A DNA stretch of 26,486 nucleotides from a virus: positions 1-26,486 of IMG/VR virus record IMGVR_UViG_3300037245_000515, one strand, 5' to 3'. The notes below the pieces were generated by a model. That model did no database searches, had not been told where the DNA came from, and saw only the letters and a program-made list of their open reading frames with translations. A program made the position numbers and the translations under genes. How positions within the stretch are numbered: the stretch's first letter is position 1; each line of letters begins with the position of its first letter. Of the stretch, positions 2,618 through 26,485 are shown in pieces.

Positions 2618-2814
2618 GTTGCTTCATGTGCGGCAGACGGAGATGGATGGCTCAGGGTACTCATCTAACACAATTTGGAAGTCATGTTGATATCAGCATA
2701 ACACCGAAGAGATTTATCTGCACTGACTGTCGAGACCGGTTAGCAAAAGCTGCAATGAAAGCTGTCATGGTTGAGATGGATTTGAATCCAAGAGGTGAGG
2801 TGGATTTCGATTGA
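2614..2814 (+). CDS. Small two-CxxC zinc-binding protein (66 aa)
   Basis: Starts at the ATGA overlap with the RNA ligase stop. The 66 residues contain C3-x-x-C6 (SCFMCGRR) and C37-x-x-C40 (FICTDCRDR), a standard four-cysteine zinc-ribbon arrangement. The C-terminal half is helical and amphipathic (KAAMKAVMVEMD). Basic residues next to both knuckles would suit nucleic-acid contact, but this is inference. It is translationally coupled to both neighbours. No named family is recognised. Confidence 0.78.
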   Translation: MSCFMCGRRRWMAQGTHLTQFGSHVDISITPKRFICTDCRDRLAKAAMKAVMVEMDLNPRGEVDFD

Positions 2815-2954
2815 GTGTACTAACAACATGTAAGAAGTGTGAGCGACAGTCCAGAGTACAGAGGGGTACTGTCGTTCACCGTGAAGGCAAATGTTATATA
2901 TGTTTACTAAAGGAAGGCAAGGTGAAGCGTGAGGTTTATAAAGAAATTGACTAA
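2811..2954 (+). CDS. Small two-CxxC zinc-binding protein (47 aa), TTG start
   Basis: This frame opens at TTG 2811, four bases inside the previous gene (TTGA overlap), and ends at TAA 2952-2954. The 47 residues include C7-x-x-C10 (TCKKCERQ) and C28-x-x-C31 (KCYICLL) with a basic stretch between. It is therefore a complete four-cysteine zinc ribbon of about the minimum size. No ATG start is available, so TTG is chosen by the coupling pattern. The C-terminus overlaps the next reading frame by 26 bases. It is short and unrecognised, but the conserved cysteine geometry shared with its neighbours argues that it is real. Confidence 0.6.
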   Translation: MSVLTTCKKCERQSRVQRGTVVHREGKCYICLLKEGKVKREVYKEID

Positions 2955-3312
2955 GATGGTAGTGGACATGGAGAAGAGGCTGACTCAGGCTGAGATCAAT
3001 ATAACGTCTGAGACGAGCAGAGCAGACAGACTACGTGACCGGGTTGACAAGCTTGAACTCAGGATTTGTTACTTGGAGTGTGAGAGGCATGACTACCGAT
3101 TCATGGGCAGGATTGACATCAACAAGCAGTACCAAGGAGTATACAAAGTTCTCAACATCCTCCTACCAGACTACCGGTACACTTTCCTCTGCTCTCAGTG
3201 TGGTCATACGTTGCAACTGAAAGCGGAAGGTATGTCTCAGCAGCAGCGAGTTGCCTTGAGAAAGTTGGGACTACTGGAAGAGGTACCCGGAGATCGGAAG
3301 GCACAGAAATGA
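2929..3312 (+). CDS. Coiled-coil protein with CxxC motif (127 aa)
   Basis: Begins at GTG 2929 behind purine-rich AAGGAAGGCAAGG; an in-frame ATG at 2956 is the alternative start. Residues about 8-50 form a charged heptad-like helix (MEKRLTQAEIN, RADRLRDRVDKLE) that predicts a coiled coil and oligomerisation. A second part holds one C88-x-x-C91 pair (FLCSQCGH) plus C47 and C51. The C-terminal 25 residues are helical and charged. The stop overlaps the next ATG by four bases. A small DNA- or protein-binding factor is plausible; no family is assigned. Confidence 0.75.
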   Translation: MRFIKKLTKMVVDMEKRLTQAEINITSETSRADRLRDRVDKLELRICYLECERHDYRFMGRIDINKQYQGVYKVLNILLPDYRYTFLCSQCGHTLQLKAEGMSQQQRVALRKLGLLEEVPGDRKAQK

Positions 3313-3512
3313 AGAAAGACCTGTCTATACCAACCACTCTGTTTCCAGTCGGTCGATGTGGTCAGCACCGGACATACCGTGGACTTGGAAAGCCAAAGAA
3401 TAACTGCTTGCAATGCTGGAGGATGTGGCTGTCTGAGCACACACATAGATGGAGTGAGTTGTCAGTCGATGAGATAAGAACCCTGATGATGATCATGGGA
3501 GGTTTCCTATGA
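3309..3512 (+). CDS. Small Cys/His-rich protein (67 aa)
   Basis: The start is the ATG in the ATGA overlap with the previous gene. The longer upstream extension of this frame would overlap that gene heavily and is rejected. The 67 residues contain C17-x-x-H20 (RCGQH) and C33-x-x-C36 (NNCLQCWRMW), followed by H44 and H46. This is a possible zinc knuckle. The C-terminus (DEIRTLMMIMGG) is a helix rich in Met and Leu. The stop overlaps the next ATG by four bases. Function unknown. Confidence 0.65.
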   Translation: MKKDLSIPTTLFPVGRCGQHRTYRGLGKPKNNCLQCWRMWLSEHTHRWSELSVDEIRTLMMIMGGFL

Positions 3513-3601
3513 TTTGTTGTAACTCTGCCTTCATAGCTGGTATCTTCGTCGGGTGGATTATCATTGGCATAGCACTGTGTATTGCAGGAGCATTCAAATG
3601 A
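3509..3601 (+). CDS. Membrane micropeptide 1 (30 aa)
   Basis: ATG at 3509 overlaps the preceding stop by four bases, and the TGA at 3599 overlaps the next ATG. The 30-residue product is almost entirely one hydrophobic helix (AFIAGIFVGWIIIGIALCIAG) with a short polar start containing two cysteines and a Lys at the end. It would insert as a single transmembrane segment. No usual gene finder would report it at this length. The evidence is the unbroken overlap chain through three successive hydrophobic peptides. Role unknown; lysis or membrane modulation are possibilities. Confidence 0.5.
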   Translation: MICCNSAFIAGIFVGWIIIGIALCIAGAFK

Positions 3602-3675
3602 ACTGGATACATTGGATTGGCACTGCTGCTCTGTTGATTTTTGCACTGTGCTTTATAATGGGAGAACACGAATGA
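3598..3675 (+). CDS. Membrane micropeptide 2 (25 aa)
   Basis: ATG at 3598 is coupled by an ATGA overlap to micropeptide 1, and its TGA at 3673 overlaps the next start. The 25 residues (MNWIHWIGTAALL start) hold one short hydrophobic helix with Trp residues at the entry face and GEHE at the end. A single-pass membrane peptide is the only prediction that can be made. It is too small to assign a family and could be a chance open frame, although it sits precisely in the overlap chain. Confidence 0.4.
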   Translation: MNWIHWIGTAALLIFALCFIMGEHE

Positions 3676-3832: not shown

Positions 3833-3997
3833 TTACATTACAACTCCAACAATGACAGAGGCGATAGCCGCTATCACTGCACCTGCCATCATCAACCGGA
3901 CTCTAAAGTGTTGGCCCATGTGTATCTTCATCGTTGACTTGACCCACTTCATATCACACTTGATCTCAGCTACATCCTCAAACAGTCTGTTAGCCAT
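3833..3997 (-). CDS. XhlA-like small membrane protein (54 aa), possible holin
   Basis: The start ATG overlaps the stop of the 1147-residue gene by one base (TAATG). The 54 residues have a hydrophilic N-terminal helix (MANRLFEDVAEIKCDMKWVK), a basic linker, and a C-terminal transmembrane helix from about residue 35 (MMAGAVIAAIASVIVGVVM). This layout matches XhlA/hemolysin-type accessory holins, which have an amphipathic helix then one C-terminal anchor. That family assignment is by architecture only. It is the final gene before the terminator, a common position for lysis genes, but no endolysin is visible in the window. Confidence 0.7.
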   Translation of the reverse strand: MANRLFEDVAEIKCDMKWVKSTMKIHMGQHFRVRLMMAGAVIAAIASVIVGVVM

Positions 3998-6900
3998 TAG
4001 TCTTCTACTCCTTTCGATATATCCTCGATGTCTTTCATGTTGGCTTCCATGACTATGTTCTTACGGACAGCAGCCTTGCTCTCCTTCACAGCCCAATTCA
4101 GAATCTCCTGCTTGAACTGCGGGCTTTGTCTTTGATACCCCGGCTTCTCTATGATACGTGGAAGAGCCTTACCTAATAGGAAACCCAAATCATCCTGATA
4201 CTTCTGATATAAGTCACCATTCAGTCTCCAGTTCCTCACCAGAGTTCTGCTCAAACCACCAAGAGTCACCTGATACCTGTCCATCTCGTCCTGTACGGAA
4301 CGGGGTAGACTCTTCTCTACTTTTAACCCGGCCTCTCGCTGCCTTCGGACATCAAACGTGGCATTACGCCTCTCGAACTTAGCAATCATCTCCTGCTCTG
4401 CTATCTGTGGCTGGTGATCTCTTAACGCCTCCTGTGCCAGAGGTCCCAAGTTCTTCCATTCCTTACCATAGACATCCAATGAGTAGTGATCTCTCATCTC
4501 AGACAGGTCATCAAGAGCATTCGTCTCGAAGGTCTGTACCCCAATACCGTGAAACGCAAGGGGAAGTACCATAGCATTTGCCGCCCTCGATTCGCTGTAC
4601 CGGAAAGCATCAATCGTATCCTGCAAGACCAACGGTGCCAGCTTCTGATAGATAGCCCACTCCATTAGTTCAGCTTTGTTCTTGAACTCAGGAAGAGGCT
4701 CACCTAAAAATGTTTTCTTTGAAGCCAACTCAATAACCAAGCCCGGAGTCGGTGCAAGTTTAGACTGGATGAACCGGCCAAATGTTTCGAGCCTGTTCTT
4801 TGTAAACAATTCCCCGGAGGACACGGCCTTACCTGTACCGGTAGCCAACTGTGCTGCTGTCCTTATGATCTGCTGGAAGCCACCCCATATATCTATGCGA
4901 GTCCTGCCAATCTTGATCTTACCGAAGTCACTTGATCTCCAGTCCTTCTCAACCTTCAACCCCAAGGCTATAGCCATAGCCATCACCGTACCACCAGCTA
5001 TCATAAAGTTCACCATCTGACTTGCCATGATCTTCGATGACGGACGAGGCTTACCGGTTACAACATCAACCAGACTGTATATGCCACTGCCTAACATCTC
5101 GAACCTTGAAGCCACATAACGTGGTGAGAAGAAAGCTGCATTCAATATGGGTAGGGCACCCTGTATCGTTTTGTTTGTGATGTTACCACGACCGGTTGAC
5201 ATGTTGATTAACTTTGCCAGTCTCTCATACTCCGACTGAGAATAGTTCATGCCTTCCCACTGGTTTGTTACTTGGTCCCATATACCAGCACGTAGTTTGT
5301 TCATGCCTACCACTGCTGCACGTTCCGAAGCCCTGACCAATGCACCTAAGAATGGTATCTGTTTAGCCCAGCTACTCATGTACCGTTCCTCAGTCTTTGA
5401 TAGACCGGCCTCAAGTTCCGATGTAAACAACCCACTCTCTTCCGCAAACTCAGCACCCTTCCTTGTAAGCAGTTCCTTCTGAGCCAAGTCAGCCCAATCA
5501 CTGCTAAAGTATGCTGCGTAAGATGCACCCAAAGCTTTTACCCACTGCTTAGGCCACTTGAACAGAGTCGTTAAACCCTGTCTGCCGATCATCGAAACCT
5601 CAGATGATGCGAGTAGTGTGGTTGGGAAGTTCACAAGGTTCACGGCAAAGTCGTATGCCTTACCACGTATACCCTTAGCTGCCTCTGCCAGTCCAGAGAG
5701 TACCTCTTTACCAGTCACCCGGCCAAGTGCTACCATCTCTGACTCAGTGGGAACGAACCCCATCTGTATCTTCTTCAATGCAGCAAGAGCATGGTCCTGC
5801 TCAAAGAACTGTAGTCCTTTAACAAGTATCGCCTTACGAATGTTCTCGTAGTCCTGTGGGGATACCTGTTCATCAGTGAAGTTATCGAAGGTAGCCTTCG
5901 GCATCTCGCCAGCCAGTTCACCTCTCGCCTCATCCTGTGCTGCTTGTATGTCGGATGGGTCTTTCTTCAATGCCAGATGTCTACGTTCCTTGGCTCTGCC
6001 CACTCGCTTACCCAACTCCAGTGATCTCTCATCTGCTGTGAGTCTGCGTGCTGTGGGGAATGCTGCCTTTACGATTGACTTGTTAAGCTTGTCAATGGAC
6101 TGTTTGTTCTCAGCCTCTTCCGGTGTCATCAGTTCGTCTACTGGCTCAATCTCTTTACCCTCAACGATAGCATCCTGTACCTTCACCAGATCATTCTTAG
6201 CCTGCACCTGCTCAGTATATGCCTCGTAGTCACCCTCTTGTGCTTCCGGGTTCTCTTCAAGGTACTCGTCCTGAGACATGGCTGTTTCTTCTGACAAGGA
6301 TACTTCAAGAAATGCTGCACCCTCTTCCTCAGTATAGACACCGGCATCTATGTCGGCTTCCACCTGATCGAACTCTTCATTCAACTCAGCCTTGGATTCA
6401 TCAGACAACTCAGGATTCTCATTCACTGCACTACGGAACTGATCGAGTCTCATGTGCTGATTGTCCAGACCAAGCATCTTCTTGGCTTTACCTGTTGCCT
6501 TACCTGCTGCTGCAAAGCCTCCACTCATTACCAACTCAAGTGGTCCACCGATACCGGCTGACTGTGCAACACCTTCCAGCAACTCCTGATCACGATCTGT
6601 AAACACATACCGCCAGAGGTTCTCATTGAAAGTCTGTGAGCCTTCTTCAACTGCCCCACGTCCAAAGGCTTTCATCCCCTCCCATAGTATCTTCTTACCA
6701 CCCTTCTTAACCATCTCACTGAATCCCTTTGCGAGACCCAGCTTCTTACCGAATGTCCACTGCTCTATAGCAGCTTCACCTAAGCCTGTCAGTTCAGCTT
6801 GGAATAACGCAGGTATAATGCCAGTGCCTTCATTCCTTGCATCTTCGTATGAAGTACCAGCTTTGGCCTGTGACATCACAAGGATACCACCACCGGGACC

Positions 6901-7440
6901 GGCTACTACTGTACCAAGAGCAGCTTCCAGCATCAAAGGTATTGCTTCAACCACACCCTGCACCAGCTTCTCAGGACTCTTGATTATGTCCAGTGCGGTG
7001 TCAAGGAATCCTGCATCCTCATCCAACTGTATCTGTACGTCCTCGTTCTCACGGTAGTACTGTTCCAGCCCGGCACCCATCTGCTCAGTCCACTGTTCGA
7101 GACCGGCTTGCATCTTCTTCTGAAACTCAGGCTGTCCACCCAATGCTTTACCAGCACCAGTGTTCCAGAACCAATCACGGTATGCTCCACCGAACTCCTG
7201 CTCTATACGAGCGAGACCGATCACACCTTTAGTCAGATTGATACCACCTGATTCAACACCATGCTTGATTGCAGTACCGATACTCTTAGGTTGATCAGGG
7301 GCATCTAATGTGAAGCCCTCTGGTATGTCTTTGTTCCGGTCCAAGTACTGCTGTGCCCATTGCTGAGATTCTCTGTGTTCCCTTTCCGCATCTGTCTCTG
7401 CGTGGAAACCTTCTGGTAATCCTAATTGACTCTCTGCCAT
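3997..7440 (-). CDS. Large internal virion / DNA-ejection protein (1147 aa)
   Basis: 1147 residues. The N-terminus is mixed helix with an amphipathic hydrophobic segment at about 163-190 (LMLEAALGTVVAGPGGGILV). A very acidic stretch follows (about 335-460), then a helical C-terminal region. That region holds motifs I associate with the ends of large phage polyvalent proteins: a LLASSE...GRQG block, an ASERAAVVGMNKLR helix (about 700-715), FFSPRYVASR (about 770-780) and a strongly hydrophobic helix at about 809-832. No peptidase, transglycosylase or MuF domain is seen. Size, amphipathicity and position downstream of the fibre suggest an internal protein ejected into the host envelope to pass DNA. 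It overlaps the coiled-coil gene by 19 bases and uses the recurring GGGAGACAGACATG leader. Confidence 0.75.
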   Translation of the reverse strand: MAESQLGLPEGFHAETDAEREHRESQQWAQQYLDRNKDIPEGFTLDAPDQPKSIGTAIKHGVESGGINLTKGVIGLARIEQEFGGAYRDWFWNTGAGKALGGQPEFQKKMQAGLEQWTEQMGAGLEQYYRENEDVQIQLDEDAGFLDTALDIIKSPEKLVQGVVEAIPLMLEAALGTVVAGPGGGILVMSQAKAGTSYEDARNEGTGIIPALFQAELTGLGEAAIEQWTFGKKLGLAKGFSEMVKKGGKKILWEGMKAFGRGAVEEGSQTFNENLWRYVFTDRDQELLEGVAQSAGIGGPLELVMSGGFAAAGKATGKAKKMLGLDNQHMRLDQFRSAVNENPELSDESKAELNEEFDQVEADIDAGVYTEEEGAAFLEVSLSEETAMSQDEYLEENPEAQEGDYEAYTEQVQAKNDLVKVQDAIVEGKEIEPVDELMTPEEAENKQSIDKLNKSIVKAAFPTARRLTADERSLELGKRVGRAKERRHLALKKDPSDIQAAQDEARGELAGEMPKATFDNFTDEQVSPQDYENIRKAILVKGLQFFEQDHALAALKKIQMGFVPTESEMVALGRVTGKEVLSGLAEAAKGIRGKAYDFAVNLVNFPTTLLASSEVSMIGRQGLTTLFKWPKQWVKALGASYAAYFSSDWADLAQKELLTRKGAEFAEESGLFTSELEAGLSKTEERYMSSWAKQIPFLGALVRASERAAVVGMNKLRAGIWDQVTNQWEGMNYSQSEYERLAKLINMSTGRGNITNKTIQGALPILNAAFFSPRYVASRFEMLGSGIYSLVDVVTGKPRPSSKIMASQMVNFMIAGGTVMAMAIALGLKVEKDWRSSDFGKIKIGRTRIDIWGGFQQIIRTAAQLATGTGKAVSSGELFTKNRLETFGRFIQSKLAPTPGLVIELASKKTFLGEPLPEFKNKAELMEWAIYQKLAPLVLQDTIDAFRYSESRAANAMVLPLAFHGIGVQTFETNALDDLSEMRDHYSLDVYGKEWKNLGPLAQEALRDHQPQIAEQEMIAKFERRNATFDVRRQREAGLKVEKSLPRSVQDEMDRYQVTLGGLSRTLVRNWRLNGDLYQKYQDDLGFLLGKALPRIIEKPGYQRQSPQFKQEILNWAVKESKAAVRKNIVMEANMKDIEDISKGVED

Positions 7441-17484: not shown

Positions 17485-17519
17485 AAGAAAATAGGGGGTG
17501 AGCCAAATTGCCCACCCCC
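17485..17519 (-). terminator. Terminator after the decoration gene
   Basis: The bases 17494-17503 and 17510-17519 form a 10-bp GC-rich stem (GGGGGTGAGC with GCCCACCCCC, one G-U pair) and a six-base loop. Read on the - strand it is followed by TATTTTCTT, a partial U-tract. It begins 12 bases after the decoration stop codon and overlaps no gene. A partial terminator would reduce expression of the tail genes relative to capsid genes. Confidence 0.75.
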
Positions 17520-17531
17520 AACAATACTTCT

Positions 17532-18794
17532 TTAACCTTCCTGTGCAAACTGAACCCAATCATAGATCACGACATCATCCTCAGCCGCACCATTCTTGGT
17601 GGCCAGAGTCGCTACCATAACAGCATCCTCCGGGAAGTCATCCCCACCAGCCGCAATATCAGCAGCCAAGATCGGGTCTGCATTGTCAACACCATCCACA
17701 TAAATGCGAATGTCTGTACCATCGTAGTACATACCAAGAGTGGTGTACTCATTGATAGTCAAAGCCTTGACATCGGCAGCATGGATGATCGGAGTCTCAC
17801 CGACAGCCACATAGACCGCATCAACACCAGTTGCATCCGCATGGAAACTCTGGAAACCCAAAGCGTTGGAGTCGATCAGAGCCGCACCATTGTCAGCAAT
17901 CAGATCACCAACGAGTTCCTGCCCTGTAAGCAACCCAAGGAAAAACCCAATGTCATCTGCTGTGACGGTGTTAGTTTTCAGCCTTGCCTCGAACGCCCAT
18001 TTCTTACCACCATTAGCAAGAATAGGACAAGCGTACTGAATCTCAACTGCATCATTATCAGCCGAACCCAGCATCTGCAATGCTCCGACAGCTTCGGAAT
18101 TCACACTGATGTTAGCAGTGGTATCACTGTACGAATTAGCAGGAACATCACTGCCCCTACGGAAGTCAGCCTCGACCAAAGAACCAGACATAGGATTCTC
18201 TCTCAACTGTTTCAAGTTGAAGTTTTTCCATATTGCATCTGTGGGAAGCTGAACAGCAGTACGACTCGAAGCCGTTACAACATCAGCACCATCACATGCC
18301 GCGATAGGAGAAACCTTAGCCAGAACAAGACCGGCAACACTTGAGCGATCAACGGTCTCAACAGCTACAGCTACACAAGGCAGTGCAGTACTGTCATTAA
18401 CCAATGTCTTCTCACCCGCTTCAAGGTACAACTTATCCCCAGCCGTGATACTCTTGTCCGTGTAGACGTTGAGATACGACTCATTGGGAACATAGATATC
18501 AATCCAACGAGGACCGATAAGACCATCTGCATCACTACAAGCATGACCAGCGAAGTAAGCTGCGTTGTCTGCGGTAACCAATTCCACACGCATGAACTTG
18601 CCTTCGTTCTGTCCACCGTCATCCGTGGTACCACTGCGAGGCAGGGCAGCAAGGGCGGTGTTCACGCCATTGATATTGTCAGTAGAATCTACATTGTAGG
18701 CTACCGGCATTCCTTCTTTGATTACTACAGCCGCTTCAAAATAAACTTTCTTCCGAAAGGCTTGGGCTTCTTGACCCATTACACTTTCACTCAT
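17532..18794 (-). CDS. Head decoration-like protein with lectin-like C-terminal domain (420 aa)
   Basis: 420 residues in two parts. About 10-165 resembles phage head decoration proteins: a beta barrel of short strands with AAVVIKEGMPVAYN, a central ITAGDKLYLEAGEKTLVND and the final VAVAVETVD...VAGLVLAKV. About 185-420 is a jelly-roll domain of the concanavalin/LamG kind, with WAFEARLKTNTVTADDIGFF, LGMYYDGTDIRIYVDGVD and DVVIYDWVQFAQEG. The gene lies directly after the putative capsid gene, has its own ribosome binding site (AGGAGAG) and is flanked by hairpins, as expected for an abundant protein. It probably trims the capsid surface and may bind glycans; binding is inferred. Confidence 0.72.
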   Translation of the reverse strand: MSESVMGQEAQAFRKKVYFEAAVVIKEGMPVAYNVDSTDNINGVNTALAALPRSGTTDDGGQNEGKFMRVELVTADNAAYFAGHACSDADGLIGPRWIDIYVPNESYLNVYTDKSITAGDKLYLEAGEKTLVNDSTALPCVAVAVETVDRSSVAGLVLAKVSPIAACDGADVVTASSRTAVQLPTDAIWKNFNLKQLRENPMSGSLVEADFRRGSDVPANSYSDTTANISVNSEAVGALQMLGSADNDAVEIQYACPILANGGKKWAFEARLKTNTVTADDIGFFLGLLTGQELVGDLIADNGAALIDSNALGFQSFHADATGVDAVYVAVGETPIIHAADVKALTINEYTTLGMYYDGTDIRIYVDGVDNADPILAADIAAGGDDFPEDAVMVATLATKNGAAEDDVVIYDWVQFAQEG

Positions 18795-19992: not shown

Positions 19993-21018
19993 CTACGCCT
20001 CGACACCTGCTTTCTTAAAAGCATCAGCCACGACTTTCTCCATCGCTGCATCCGTGCCGGGCTTGGGTTGTTTTTTCTGATGTTTGTTACGGTTGGGGCG
20101 AGTTGTCATCTGCTTCGACCGGCCACGGAGTTCCTTTGCTACTTTCCGCATTGCCTTCTTTTCCCCGTTCTCTCCTTCGTAAAGTGTGACTGCACCATCC
20201 AGACATTCCTTGAATGTTCCGAACTTACCCGTATCATACAAGGCGGTAGCCTGTCCGTAGATAGACGCTCTTGCTTTCACAGAACGGTTTCTCTCGTCAG
20301 GGACGCCATCGCTATTCAGCGGGAGTTTGTCATACTGTCCGAAGATGGGGTGGTCCTTAGTCAGATCATCCAGCCTCTTGTTAGTATCGCAGAAATTTTC
20401 ATACGCCTCTTTGTTCTTAGCTGACTGTGCTCTCACTTCATCTGCTTCTGCTACAGTGTTTAGAGAGGTTGTCAACTTTTCGACTGTAGTACTGAGACCC
20501 TTCAATGCGATGGCTACGGCAGGATTATCTTTCTCCAACGCTGCCATATCTTCATCACTGATTAGCCCTTCGGTCTCAACCTTCTCAGTCTTTTTAGGAA
20601 CCACAACGCTATCTTCCTCAGAAGATTCCTTAACGTCCTTGGTTTCCAGCAATGATAAGATGTCCTTTACAATGTCAGGGTCAACATCGTTAAGCTTCTG
20701 AACCATCTCAGCACTGTATCCCAACACATCAATACCTTCGACTTCAACATCATCATCGGCCTCAGCCTCGTCGTCGTCATGCTCATCGGCATCATCTGTA
20801 TCGTCGTCAACACCTTTCTCGGTGTCGTCATCATCGGCCTCAGCCGAATCTTTATCGACCTTGCCTTTGTCGTCGTCATCAGAATCTATATACTGATCAT
20901 CGTCGTCGTCGGCATTGTCGTCATTTACTGCATCAATAGCTTTGGCAACCGACTCTGGTACACCATCAACCATTTTTTCTTCGCTGTCTACTATTTCGTT
21001 ACCATCTTTGTCTAACAT
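19993..21018 (-). CDS. Capsid scaffolding protein
   Basis: 341 residues. The N-terminal third (about 33-94) is a run of Asp and Glu with few other residues. The middle (about 100-235) is helical with a coiled-coil tendency (VAIALKGLSTTVEKLTTSLN). The C-terminus is strongly basic (KELRGRSKQMTTRPNRNKHQ) and ends in a short amphipathic helix (MEKVVADAFKKAGVEA). An acidic N-terminus with a basic C-terminal helix that binds the shell is typical of scaffolding proteins of short-tailed phages. It lies 18 bases before the capsid gene, and its start is one base after the preceding stop. Confidence 0.85.
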   Translation of the reverse strand: MLDKDGNEIVDSEEKMVDGVPESVAKAIDAVNDDNADDDDDQYIDSDDDDKGKVDKDSAEADDDDTEKGVDDDTDDADEHDDDEAEADDDVEVEGIDVLGYSAEMVQKLNDVDPDIVKDILSLLETKDVKESSEEDSVVVPKKTEKVETEGLISDEDMAALEKDNPAVAIALKGLSTTVEKLTTSLNTVAEADEVRAQSAKNKEAYENFCDTNKRLDDLTKDHPIFGQYDKLPLNSDGVPDERNRSVKARASIYGQATALYDTGKFGTFKECLDGAVTLYEGENGEKKAMRKVAKELRGRSKQMTTRPNRNKHQKKQPKPGTDAAMEKVVADAFKKAGVEA

Positions 21019-23007: not shown

Positions 23008-23271
23008 TTACTCTGTGTATGTTGCTACAATTTCTTCTTCTTTGATGACAGCATAATGATGGCTACCATCCCTGATCAATGTTCCTGTGTAGTCAGCAAA
23101 GAGAACCAAATCGCCTACGGAAAGTTCATCAACCTGCTCACCGACCTCAACAATTACTCCACGTTTCTCTTTCTTGTCTGTGTTACCCGGAAGCAAGATA
23201 CCGCCGTTCGACACATCATCAACTTTGTTTCTCTTGATCAGTACTCTGGTTCCTAATGGTGTGATCTTCAT
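23008..23271 (-). CDS. GroES-like co-chaperonin
   Basis: 87 residues, slightly shorter than E. coli GroES (97). Family features are seen: N-terminal ITPLGTRVLIKR; a mobile-loop region from about 16 to 37 with NGGILLPG, where ILL (25-27) fits the hydrophobic tripeptide that contacts GroEL; RGVIVEVGEQ; VGDLVLFADYTGTLI; and a C-terminal YAVIKEEEIVATY. It should cap host GroEL and assist folding of the phage capsid protein, as T4 gp31 does. It lies between portal and lipoprotein genes and has the recurrent GGGAGACAGACATG leader. No GroEL gene is seen in the window. Confidence 0.93.
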   Translation of the reverse strand: MKITPLGTRVLIKRNKVDDVSNGGILLPGNTDKKEKRGVIVEVGEQVDELSVGDLVLFADYTGTLIRDGSHHYAVIKEEEIVATYTE

Positions 23272-23282: not shown

Positions 23283-25016
23283 TTAAACTACGTTACCATC
23301 TTTCTCTTGTTTTTGTCGAGAGTTTGCAGCAGACGAATTAGGATTATTCCCTGTCCTTCCGTCCTGTACATCCTTCGACTTTACTTTACCAGATGTCGGT
23401 GTGTATGGATTCAACTGAGTTGACTGATTGGGTACAGCCGTTTCATACCAGTCATCCATTCCACGAATACCAGCCAACTTGCCTAAGTACTTCGTGACCT
23501 TTGGTACATTGAGTGAAGCCCCCTGTTGTGCTCCGATCTGAGCCGAAGGAAGAATCCACTGAGTCAGTAAGCTAAGGACTCGGTTAAACTCAACACTCGG
23601 AGACAGTCGCTGCATGGAGTACGGTTCTACTTCAAACTCATAATCCCAAAACTCGCCATCTCTTGCAGCCCGGTCAAAGGTAACTTCTATGTCACCGTAA
23701 CCGTCAATCCGCTTTACCTGTGGAACAGAAATTAGCGGGTCACTCCAGAAGAACCAGCACATCTTATTACTGATACTCTTGGTAAAATCGTATACTGCTT
23801 CCGTCATATCGTCAACACTCTTGGAGGCATTGGCAAAGGATAATTGGTCCTGTCCCAATGTTGCTGCTCCAGTTCCTTGTCCACCAAGCGTATACAGGTT
23901 GTTGCCCTGCATTGAATACTGCTGCTCTAAATAACTAATCCATTGATAATGCTGTGGGTCAATACCGTCCCACTTAATATCCTTCATACCATCAACATTA
24001 GTTACCTTGATAGCCTTCTGGTCCGGTGCAGCAGCAAGCCTCTCAGCGTCCTCTGCTCCATCCCCTTCGTAAGCAAGCACAGTCTTTTGGGCCTCTGCTT
24101 GTTTCCGCATCTTATTGACTATGATGTTTAGAGTCGTGTCCAGGTCCATCCAGTACCAGACAGGAGGGATAGGCATTGCTGTGCCGGGGAACTCTTTGAA
24201 ATACAACTTATCATAGGGTCCACCCTCCGGGGTCTCAGCTTCGATAGTACGCAGGATTGTTGCAGAATGCGGTTCGATTGTGAGAATAACCCTCTCATCA
24301 GGAACCCAAATATCCATAAGCTGAACGTATTCTTTTAGGGACTGATACTCGCCCTCAGGTTTTGCGATCTTCTCAGGATTGTACTGATCAGAAGAACCAT
24401 TCAAACGGTAAGAAGGATTCAGGATATCCCGATGTTTGTGAAACTCTTCCCTTGCGGCCTCAATCGGCATCCTATAGAAGTTACCCTCAAACTCGAAACC
24501 CTCAAAGCAGGTCGCAGTAGCATCACCGATGTAATCAACTACATCAATCGGGTCAGAGTATACTTGGCCTACTGCATGAGTGTGTCCATAGATATCTACT
24601 TCCGACTCTTTCATAATGCCGGTCTTCATAATACCAAGACCAAGCATAGCATCACGAACGACTGGCCTCAAAGAGTTCCTTGCAAACTTTATCTCTTTGA
24701 TAAGGTGGTTGAAGGCCAACTCCGTTGTCATAGCAAATGGACGGAGTTCTTTCTTTTTCGTGGTAATCAGAAGCTGAGGATTGCTCATCACCAGATATGG
24801 AATGAGAATACTCAAGCCACGGTCAATCAGGTTAATAGGATGACTGCTGCCCTCGCCATCTTCGCCCCTTGAAAAATAACCGGACTCCAATGCTCTCAGC
24901 ATCATTGCTCTTTTTGCAAGAGTTGGTCTTACTACAGTCTGCCAAGTCTTTGTACCCTTCACAAGTCTCTGCGGAAAGGAGAGCCTTACATTTTTTTCTT
25001 TGAGTATCGAAGTCAT
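23283..25016 (-). CDS. Portal protein (577 aa)
   Basis: 577 residues, in the length range of portal proteins of short-tailed phages. It follows the large terminase by eight bases with an AAGG ribosome site, the standard portal position. The N-terminal third is helical (AKRAMMLRALESGYFSRGED). The middle is alpha/beta with a WVPDERVILTIEPHSATILR strand region and DLDTTLNIIVNKMRKQAEAQ, a long helix typical of the stem/wing. About 380-450 has Q-rich and acidic helices (DQLSFANASKSVDDMTEAVY). The C-terminus is Asn/Ser-rich. The portal forms the dodecameric ring through which DNA enters and leaves. The assignment rests on position, size and pattern. Confidence 0.82.
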   Translation of the reverse strand: MTSILKEKNVRLSFPQRLVKGTKTWQTVVRPTLAKRAMMLRALESGYFSRGEDGEGSSHPINLIDRGLSILIPYLVMSNPQLLITTKKKELRPFAMTTELAFNHLIKEIKFARNSLRPVVRDAMLGLGIMKTGIMKESEVDIYGHTHAVGQVYSDPIDVVDYIGDATATCFEGFEFEGNFYRMPIEAAREEFHKHRDILNPSYRLNGSSDQYNPEKIAKPEGEYQSLKEYVQLMDIWVPDERVILTIEPHSATILRTIEAETPEGGPYDKLYFKEFPGTAMPIPPVWYWMDLDTTLNIIVNKMRKQAEAQKTVLAYEGDGAEDAERLAAAPDQKAIKVTNVDGMKDIKWDGIDPQHYQWISYLEQQYSMQGNNLYTLGGQGTGAATLGQDQLSFANASKSVDDMTEAVYDFTKSISNKMCWFFWSDPLISVPQVKRIDGYGDIEVTFDRAARDGEFWDYEFEVEPYSMQRLSPSVEFNRVLSLLTQWILPSAQIGAQQGASLNVPKVTKYLGKLAGIRGMDDWYETAVPNQSTQLNPYTPTSGKVKSKDVQDGRTGNNPNSSAANSRQKQEKDGNVV

Positions 25017-25024
25017 AAGTTACC

Positions 25025-26485
25025 TTAGTATATAAAACGCTTTGGTTGTTTCTGTTTACCCAGCTTTCTCTGTCTCATTCGCTGACCAAGACTCCTACCG
25101 TTCGAGGCTTTTTGTTTATCAACCAATGCTTTAGGCTGATACGTCAAAGCCAAGCAACACAAACCAAGAGCGATTACTCTGTCTCCATGTGCTGCATTTG
25201 CAGAACCATCTTCATCTTCTGCTGCTTTAGCCGGGTGTGGTGTACCTGCATTGTTAAACAGATACGATTCCATTTCCCGTATTGTTGCTTCACAGTGAAT
25301 CTTTATGTGCTTTACCATTGGGTTCTTAGACAGACCAGCTTTCAAAGCAACATCCAAATTCATCAGCAATGCAAACTTCGTGCCCTCCGGTCCTTTGGTA
25401 TTACACCAACCAAGTTTGTTCTTTTTCTTTTTCCGCTTGGCTGTTTCATCTCTGCGAACGTATACGAATGGATACTGGTTCTCAACTATCCTGCCTTCAA
25501 AGACACCACCAATACCATTAGACTCCCATATCAAGTAGGGTTCTTTGTCTCGTCCTCCAATCCATTTACAGAGAGCGACTGCTGTATCCGCAAAATTCTC
25601 CGGTGATGTATTAGCATCAATCCATTGACCAACTTCCTCACCAAGATTGACATCAACGATACTGAGCACACTGTTGCTTGCCCCACGACCAAGACCAATA
25701 TCCCCGCCAACAATAAAATTATGTGATTGATCTGGACGACCATTGTAAAGTTTTCCCCACCATCTTAGACGACCTACGCCACCTTGAACTACCTTATACC
25801 CTGCTACTTTGTGCTTTCTGTTGTACTGAACAACAATATCACCCTTGAATTTTGGCTCAGAAACGCATGTTTGTTCAATACGATGCAAGGTTGCCGGGGT
25901 AAATACGGACGAACCAGAACCTCTTGGCCTCATATCAAGGTTACAAGCGATGTCTCTTGCTCGTCTTGTCCGGGATTGTCTATCATACCAGACACTACGC
26001 CAGCCACCCTCGTTCGAGTCGCCACCGTCTGCCACAAATTTGATAGCTTCCAGCTTCTTCGCCCAAGGACAATCAGCATGTTTTCTTCTGAGTTCACTCA
26101 GCGTAAAGCCTATCATCGGTTCTATCTCGTTAAACACTTCCGGTATCAATTCACGATACCATTCTATGTCCCTGATCTCAATGATGTCGTAATCAGGGGT
26201 GATGTACTGACCCATATTCTTAGTTGGGTTCTCCCACCACGGCATTTTAGTAACCGGTATCTCACCAAACTTCTGTGTGATCAACTGGTTATAGGGATGT
26301 TCAACACCCCAAAAGTGAGTACTGTTAAAAATAACACATTTCGATGTGTCATTAACAGAGTCGTTAATATTCAGTGCCATGTTATGATCTATACGACCAT
26401 ACTCATCGACCAGTATACCTTTCTGCCGGTCGCCTGCACCGAAGTTCTCGTTTGTTGCTTCACCAGATATGACCGAAGAATTGTC
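25025..26485 (-). CDS. Terminase large subunit, 5' end missing
   Basis: About 486 residues are visible; the frame is open at the right edge, so Walker A and the start lie outside. Near the visible beginning, GILVDEYGRI (residues 23-32) is the Walker B-like motif with acidic D27 and E28. The nuclease domain follows: FIVGGDIGLGRGASNSVLSI (about 257-276, catalytic Asp262), YLIWESNGIGG (about 317-327, Glu321) and AAHGDRVIALGL (about 432-442, Asp435). These three acidic residues match an RNase H-like terminase nuclease. The C-terminus is basic (QRMRQRKLGKQKQPKRF). It cuts and pumps DNA into the capsid through the portal. No small terminase gene is visible. The ATG at 26380 is internal, not the start. 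Confidence 0.9.
   Translation of the reverse strand, partial: DNSSVISGEATNENFGAGDRQKGILVDEYGRIDHNMALNINDSVNDTSKCVIFNSTHFWGVEHPYNQLITQKFGEIPVTKMPWWENPTKNMGQYITPDYDIIEIRDIEWYRELIPEVFNEIEPMIGFTLSELRRKHADCPWAKKLEAIKFVADGGDSNEGGWRSVWYDRQSRTRRARDIACNLDMRPRGSGSSVFTPATLHRIEQTCVSEPKFKGDIVVQYNRKHKVAGYKVVQGGVGRLRWWGKLYNGRPDQSHNFIVGGDIGLGRGASNSVLSIVDVNLGEEVGQWIDANTSPENFADTAVALCKWIGGRDKEPYLIWESNGIGGVFEGRIVENQYPFVYVRRDETAKRKKKKNKLGWCNTKGPEGTKFALLMNLDVALKAGLSKNPMVKHIKIHCEATIREMESYLFNNAGTPHPAKAAEDEDGSANAAHGDRVIALGLCCLALTYQPKALVDKQKASNGRSLGQRMRQRKLGKQKQPKRFIY

Follow-up and report, generated by a model that had tools for sequence, protein, structure and literature searches.

A viral gene lying beside the major capsid protein (MCP) gene encodes a 420-residue product in which two predicted folds are joined, an N-terminal beta-barrel of the kind seen in capsid decoration proteins and a C-terminal concanavalin A-like jelly roll, and related loci carry the same type of barrel with the jelly roll exchanged for unrelated modules. 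We consider it probable that the product is a capsid decoration protein that displays a glycan-binding lectin domain outward from the head, and that this outer module is exchanged by recombination. The presence of the protein in virions, its copy number and its outward orientation are what we infer within this reading, while glycan binding and the nature of the ligand form its least certain part. Decoration proteins that present an adhesive domain on the capsid are already known, T4 Hoc being one; what is new is the exchangeable concanavalin A-like module. The analysed DNA, hereafter the window, comprises 26,486 bases and is a virus record of IMG/VR to which no cellular genome is attached; its head-gene region is summarised in Table 1.

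Table 1. Features of the two-domain gene and of the neighbouring head genes in the window.
Feature	Position	Strand	Basis or remark
Two-domain head protein gene, 420 aa	17532..18794	-	Residue 1 at 18794, ATG start, stop codon 17534-17532
Residues 1-163, putative capsid-anchoring decoration domain	18306..18794	-	Predicted beta-barrel, gpD/TW1/phi29 gp8.5 type by structure match
Residues 164-183, predicted flexible linker	18246..18305	-	pLDDT <50 at residues 167-176
Residues 184-420, exchangeable concanavalin A-like (LamG/lectin-type) jelly roll (predicted)	17535..18245	-	Model, with Foldseek matches in PDB and BFVD
Major capsid protein (MCP) gene, 362 aa	18886..19974	-	phrog_9953 major head protein, E 7.4e-4
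Acidic 341-aa gene, scaffold-like by position	19993..21018	-	Position and composition; upstream of the MCP gene
577-aa gene, portal-like by position	23283..25016	-	Homologue in the corresponding position in L012 and L013
Putative terminase-like gene (by position), runs off the window end	25025..26485	-	

The interval that the sequence-only reading had singled out, with its strand unstated, is a real gene on the minus strand, and all of the LamG/concanavalin motifs named in that reading (K-K-W-A-F-E-A-R, G-M-Y-Y-D-G-T-D-I-R-I-Y-V-D-G and D-W-V-Q-F) occur in the minus-strand product. An open reading frame of 278 aa overlaps it on the plus strand (17508-18344), and the conservation found elsewhere is that of the minus-strand protein, which is conserved in L073, L013, L009 and L056. 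The MCP gene lies immediately upstream at a spacing of about 90 bases, and the decoration gene adjoins an MCP gene in most of the related loci examined, an arrangement typical of gpD-type proteins; the position beside the MCP gene was thereby confirmed both in the window and in its relatives. Further upstream, the acidic 341-aa gene had no Pfam or PHROG family match and is syntenic in L012 and L013 at 39-55% identity. The portal-like gene is 66-69% identical to its homologue in these two loci, with no informative family match in Pfam or PHROG, and the terminase-like gene likewise matched no Pfam or PHROG family.

Since the sequence libraries gave only sub-threshold matches on their own, relatives were collected and structures were predicted, and the Pfam and PHROG domain calls were dropped as a basis for assignment. 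In the window protein, Phage_cement_2 (PF09956) matched residues 113-157 with E 0.018, the N-domain scoring 17.8 bits, below the gathering cut-off of 24, and the head decoration family phrog_122 matched weakly (E 0.027); across the N-domain members, Phage_cement_2 matched 9 of 56, with a best E of 3.6e-5. PDB sequence and profile searches with the full protein, the module profiles and the N-domain profile returned nothing significant, and the N-domain profile had no direct profile link to the decoration protein of L173.

The AlphaFold model of residues 1-163, built from 56 sequences, was of moderate confidence (pLDDT 76.5). When this model was compared with the PDB by Foldseek, the best 50 matches all came from capsid or prohead structures, the strongest being HFTV1 (8qsy, E 2.1e-4), the base of the phi29 head fibre gp8.5 (6qyy, E 4.6e-4), TW1 (5wk1_K, E 8.4e-4) and Pam3 (8hdt_G, E 9.4e-4), with other capsid entries from Borrelia phage BB1, Sf11, Pa193, T1 and phiCD508 among the 50. 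TM values of the model to the matched capsid chains were about 0.5-0.7. Nearly all of these chains appear to be decoration or stabilising proteins, judging from their length (mostly ~110-210 residues) and their titles; for phi29 the title states it outright. The decoration-like barrel that had been proposed for the N-terminus is therefore borne out as a predicted fold, since capsid structures alone occupy the top 50, and at the level of prediction this fold is the gpD-type beta-barrel. Proteins of the gpD type bind as trimers to the three-fold positions of the expanded capsid, and phi29 gp8.5 carries a fibre. The hundreds of copies per head mentioned in the sequence-only reading would be expected from gpD-type stoichiometry.

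The full-length AlphaFold model (42 sequences) had a mean pLDDT of 83.9 with a low-confidence linker at about residues 167-176, and it returned 473 PDB matches at E<=0.001 in Foldseek. Legume lectins (2pel, E 4.0e-8) and the carbohydrate-recognition domain of Emp47p (2a6z, target TM 0.64) were at the top, Crh5 and GH16-type glucanases were also among the best, and the best matches spanned about 240-270 columns. In BFVD, many phage proteins were matched, some of them named concanavalin A-like. The PDB match table comes without query positions and the fold matches rest on predicted models; the lectin-fold match was assigned to residues 184-420 from the alignment length, the Laminin_G_3 match and the separate N-domain result. 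Structure prediction, which had been suggested earlier for residues 185-420, was run within the full-length model and yielded a concanavalin A-like fold with the two-sheet jelly roll of the lectin/glucanase superfamily, so that the lectin-like jelly roll claimed for the C-terminal part stands as a predicted fold with lectin and glucanase matches in the PDB. With Pfam Laminin_G_3 (PF13385) the module shares the fold and a weak sequence match (E 0.0057, residues 309-381), although the window score of 17.2 bits lies below the gathering cut-off of 27.6; the best E among 30 family members was 3.1e-5. As predicted folds, the assignments of both halves of the protein are firm.

Relatives were gathered from IMG/VR with an MCP profile (60 loci) and with an N-domain profile (70 loci). 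Across the roughly 70 anchor-bearing loci, the anchor carries C-terminal modules of three mutually unrelated classes, one orphan (L132), or none, and the three classes did not cross-match by phmmer or profile search. The largest class, betaC (n=43), mostly ends in a short tail of the T-T-Y-Y type; the lectin class comprises 17 anchors with the window counted, and the short class (n=7) is about 130 residues long. The module-free case is L015 (= L075), in which a 212-aa protein (6177-6815) consists of the anchor and ~46 residues without a display module, its open reading frame ending near the contig end; it had clustered with betaC through the common tail and is counted here as module-free. The MCPs of L015 and L013 share 92% identity.

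Pairs of loci with closely related capsids illustrate the replacements. The window and L012 have MCPs that are 84% identical and nearly all of their flanking genes match at 42-77% (two small window genes have no match), and in the decoration gene only residues 1-161 of 420 match. Between L061 and L058, the MCPs are 92% identical and the neighbours match at 60-87%, and the decoration gene has no match. Exchange is also visible within the lectin class: the N-domain of the window is 60% identical to that of L073 versus 81% between L073 and L013, while residues 184-420 show the reverse, 83% between the window and L073 versus 61% between L073 and L013, with a recombination crossover among the three near the domain boundary, between about residues 120 and 210. 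L009 and L056 show a like imbalance (49% in the N-domain, 71% in the C-domain).

When the module classes were mapped onto trees, the lectin label required 5 changes on the N-domain tree versus 14.5 when shuffled, which indicates that whole genes often move together. On the MCP tree (39 rows, module labels assigned by hand), the lectin label was as scattered as shuffled labels, with 10 changes for 10 rows versus a shuffled mean of 8.9, and the betaC label showed some clustering (7 changes versus 13.4 shuffled). In pairwise identity, the portal-like gene followed the MCP most closely (Spearman 0.77), ahead of a 256-aa gene (0.63), two other genes (0.49 and 0.41) and the decoration N-domain (0.28), with a 121-aa gene at 0.06. 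Because this last gene is decoupled from the MCP too, the decoration gene is not alone in its high mosaicism, and the idea that it is the sole mosaic gene was rejected. The frequent exchange of its outer module, as judged by sequence comparison, is what would be expected of a surface-exposed adhesive part. All of the relatives come from metagenomic contigs, and although single swaps could be imitated by chimeric assembly, the pattern over so many loci could not.

Several other features were seen around the decoration gene in these loci. In at least three loci, L005 (2088-2513), L009 (2763-3473) and L038 (6102-6704), a free-standing HNH-endonuclease-like open reading frame separates the MCP gene from the decoration gene, and open reading frames of similar size occupy the same spot in L029, L051, L052, L053 and L058; the HNH-like frames might help drive exchange at this spot. 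In L005 the decoration gene (2620-3644) is broken by a frameshift after ~29 codons, with the N-domain partly missing and the remainder open, which could be either an assembly error or real. A different protein of 268-293 aa replaces the decoration gene after the MCP gene in eight loci (L047, L048, L050, L052, L057, L058, L065 and L068).

At least two unrelated N-termini also bear the lectin module in genes close to capsid genes, and the idea that the module is always tied to its own anchor was rejected. In L001-L003, which represent another phage type, a module ~40% identical to residues 184-420 of the window protein stands behind a different N-terminus, which in L001 matches phrog_673 (E 8.6e-10). 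These loci have a lambda-like gene order of portal, S49 protease, module gene and MCP, the MCP of L003 belonging to phrog_1005 (E 8e-45). A second module subtype, homologous to the first from end to end (hhalign probability 99.2%, E 1.6e-19), was used in a further scan that gave 30 loci, 18 of them new. Among the new loci, L149 has the module on a window-type anchor, and L154 and L158 have it on distant anchors of that kind; elsewhere it is joined to other N-termini or stands by itself. A window-type MCP was detected by HMM in 10 of the 18, and loci with the module near such an MCP include L150, L152, L154-L156, L158, L166, L169 and L172; L165 and L168 have a phrog_212 MCP, and in 6 of the 18 no MCP was detected by HMM or PHROG searches. 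At least two lectin-type genes in tandem were identified by HMM in L155, L156, L159, L162 and L171, with three in L159 and four in L162, where one is a short 141-aa frame. Distant module matches were found in two environmental GenBank records; in MW202601 (environmental, Manatee Spring) the match lies two genes past the annotated MCP.

In the explanation that we favour, the N-terminal beta-barrel (residues 1-163) would clamp to the outer face of the icosahedral head in the fashion of gpD, and the linker (~164-183) would hold the concanavalin A-like domain (184-420) out, in many copies, into the surrounding medium. This domain would most likely bind a glycan of bacterial cells or of their matrix, weakly per copy and strongly when multivalent, and such reversible adhesion could enrich virions near hosts before the tail engages. 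Recombination would swap the outer module while the anchor still fits the shell, giving rise to unrelated display modules on the same anchor in relatives. As a guess, a bacterial surface or extracellular polysaccharide would be a more economical ligand than mucus, and the attachment to mucus envisaged in the sequence-only reading is speculation. For Hoc and further decoration proteins, multivalent adhesion that enriches virions near hosts has been put forward in the literature (PMC10385173, PMC7602432).

Concanavalin A-like folds have structural and enzymatic roles as well, and we think it unlikely, if worth weighing, that the protein decorates the head with a jelly roll that binds no sugar and serves as a structural element or spacer, stabilises the shell, or confers surface charge or virion dispersal. 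Such a role would agree with the very acidic C-module (calculated pI ~4.05-4.24 in eight proteins), as low pI has been discussed as a clustering or dispersal feature of Hoc (PMC10385173), and with the dispensability of the module in L015/L075; the unrelated replacement modules and the crossover near the domain boundary, however, fit a specificity module better. That the C-domain is an active GH16-type hydrolase clearing a path through matrix polysaccharide is extremely improbable in our view: the best fold matches include GH16-type glucanases and there is a weak profile match to 3o5s (E 0.063), but the GH16 catalytic pattern (E-x-D, one or two residues, E), the single arrangement tested, is absent from the window module and from the modules of 15 relatives. 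This absence, together with the repeated replacement of the outer part, favours binding over catalysis.

Phage tail proteins often contain lectin-type domains, and several of the BFVD matches are named putative tail protein or phage tail repeat like, as would suit an adhesin of the tail, neck or head-tail connector whose gene happens to lie close to the MCP gene. The capsid or prohead origin of 50 of the 50 best N-domain matches in the PDB and the placement of the decoration gene behind the MCP gene in most of the loci examined argue against such an adhesin, which we regard as very improbable. Returning to the proposed display of a glycan-binding domain, our results suggest that the phage head, besides the tail, has an exchangeable sticky surface. 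A wider proposal, which we put forward tentatively as a possibility with less than even prospects, is that the decoration gene is an exchange platform in which display domains are repeatedly installed, swapped and deleted on a conserved anchor, that adsorption or niche would thus depend on a recombining head surface in addition to the receptor-binding proteins of the tail, and that the jelly roll circulates among unrelated phages and between several anchors.

Among known systems, T4 Hoc likewise combines a conserved capsid-binding domain with variable outward display domains, and there is evidence that it binds bacterial surfaces and mucin glycans (PMC10385173). In Hoc, however, Ig-like domains are strung together for display and the anchor is C-terminal, whereas the window protein has an N-terminal anchor of another fold and a concanavalin A-like display domain; the Ig-like display and C-terminal Hoc capsid-binding domain that define Hoc were not found in it. 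Moreover, whole modules without detectable homology are exchanged here, while in Hoc it is the Ig sequence that varies. The gpD-type (beta-tulip) proteins lambda gpD, TW1 gp56 and the phi29 gp8.5 base resemble the window protein in the fold of the N-domain and in having an MCP-adjacent gene (PMC7602432), but the window protein has no above-threshold match to a curated family and bears a lectin-type domain of 236 residues. The N-domain is best matched by capsid chains of HFTV1, and the head of that virus also bears a module for which glycan binding has been proposed, although in HFTV1 the stabilising protein is separate from the turret that has the galactose-binding-like and deacetylase-like domains (PMC12494034). 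Modular virion-surface domains are likewise found in the Ig-like adhesins of gut phages (PMC13370021) and in the MCP of phage Douge, whose Ig-like domain binds mycobacterial glycans (PMC13033339); these domains are Ig-like or BACON with adhesion or glycan binding shown by experiment, in contrast with a concanavalin A-like module known from sequence and prediction.

In a set of 50,697 phage records, searches with the decoration, MCP, portal-like and terminase-like proteins came up empty, and cultured relatives sought with the L003 and L009 homologues as well gave no match. Two scans of GTDB genomes with the module and the MCP found no relative, host or integrated copy. In the open-licence literature on concanavalin A-like or lectin domains joined to capsid decoration proteins, this architecture was not found. 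The adhesive domains described on phage heads so far are mainly Ig-like (Hoc, Douge and gut phages), and a concanavalin A-like domain on a gpD-type anchor is apparently an independent solution that recurs in a large uncultivated group. The natural swaps on near-identical capsids (MCP identities of 84% and 92%) are a ready-made experiment, by which it can be tested whether the head surface evolves as a host or niche determinant like tail fibres.

Other genes of the window were also noted. For a 162-aa neighbour, the names Invasin_D3 and cytolethal distending toxin C (E 0.04-0.09) were taken as chance. Just downstream of the portal-like gene, an 87-aa open reading frame (23008-23271, minus strand; MKITPLGTRVLIKRNKVDDVSNGGILLPG...) resembles GroES-type co-chaperonins and has no match in the syntenic L012 and L013. 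A 1147-aa protein (3997-7440, minus strand) weakly matches the virion RNA polymerase family phrog_2206 over residues 143-465 (E 2.1e-8). Read by eye, two plus-strand frames are a nucleic-acid-ligase-like protein of 306 aa (1697-2617; IIQEKVDGSQISFG) and a metallophosphoesterase-like protein of 231 aa (311-1006).
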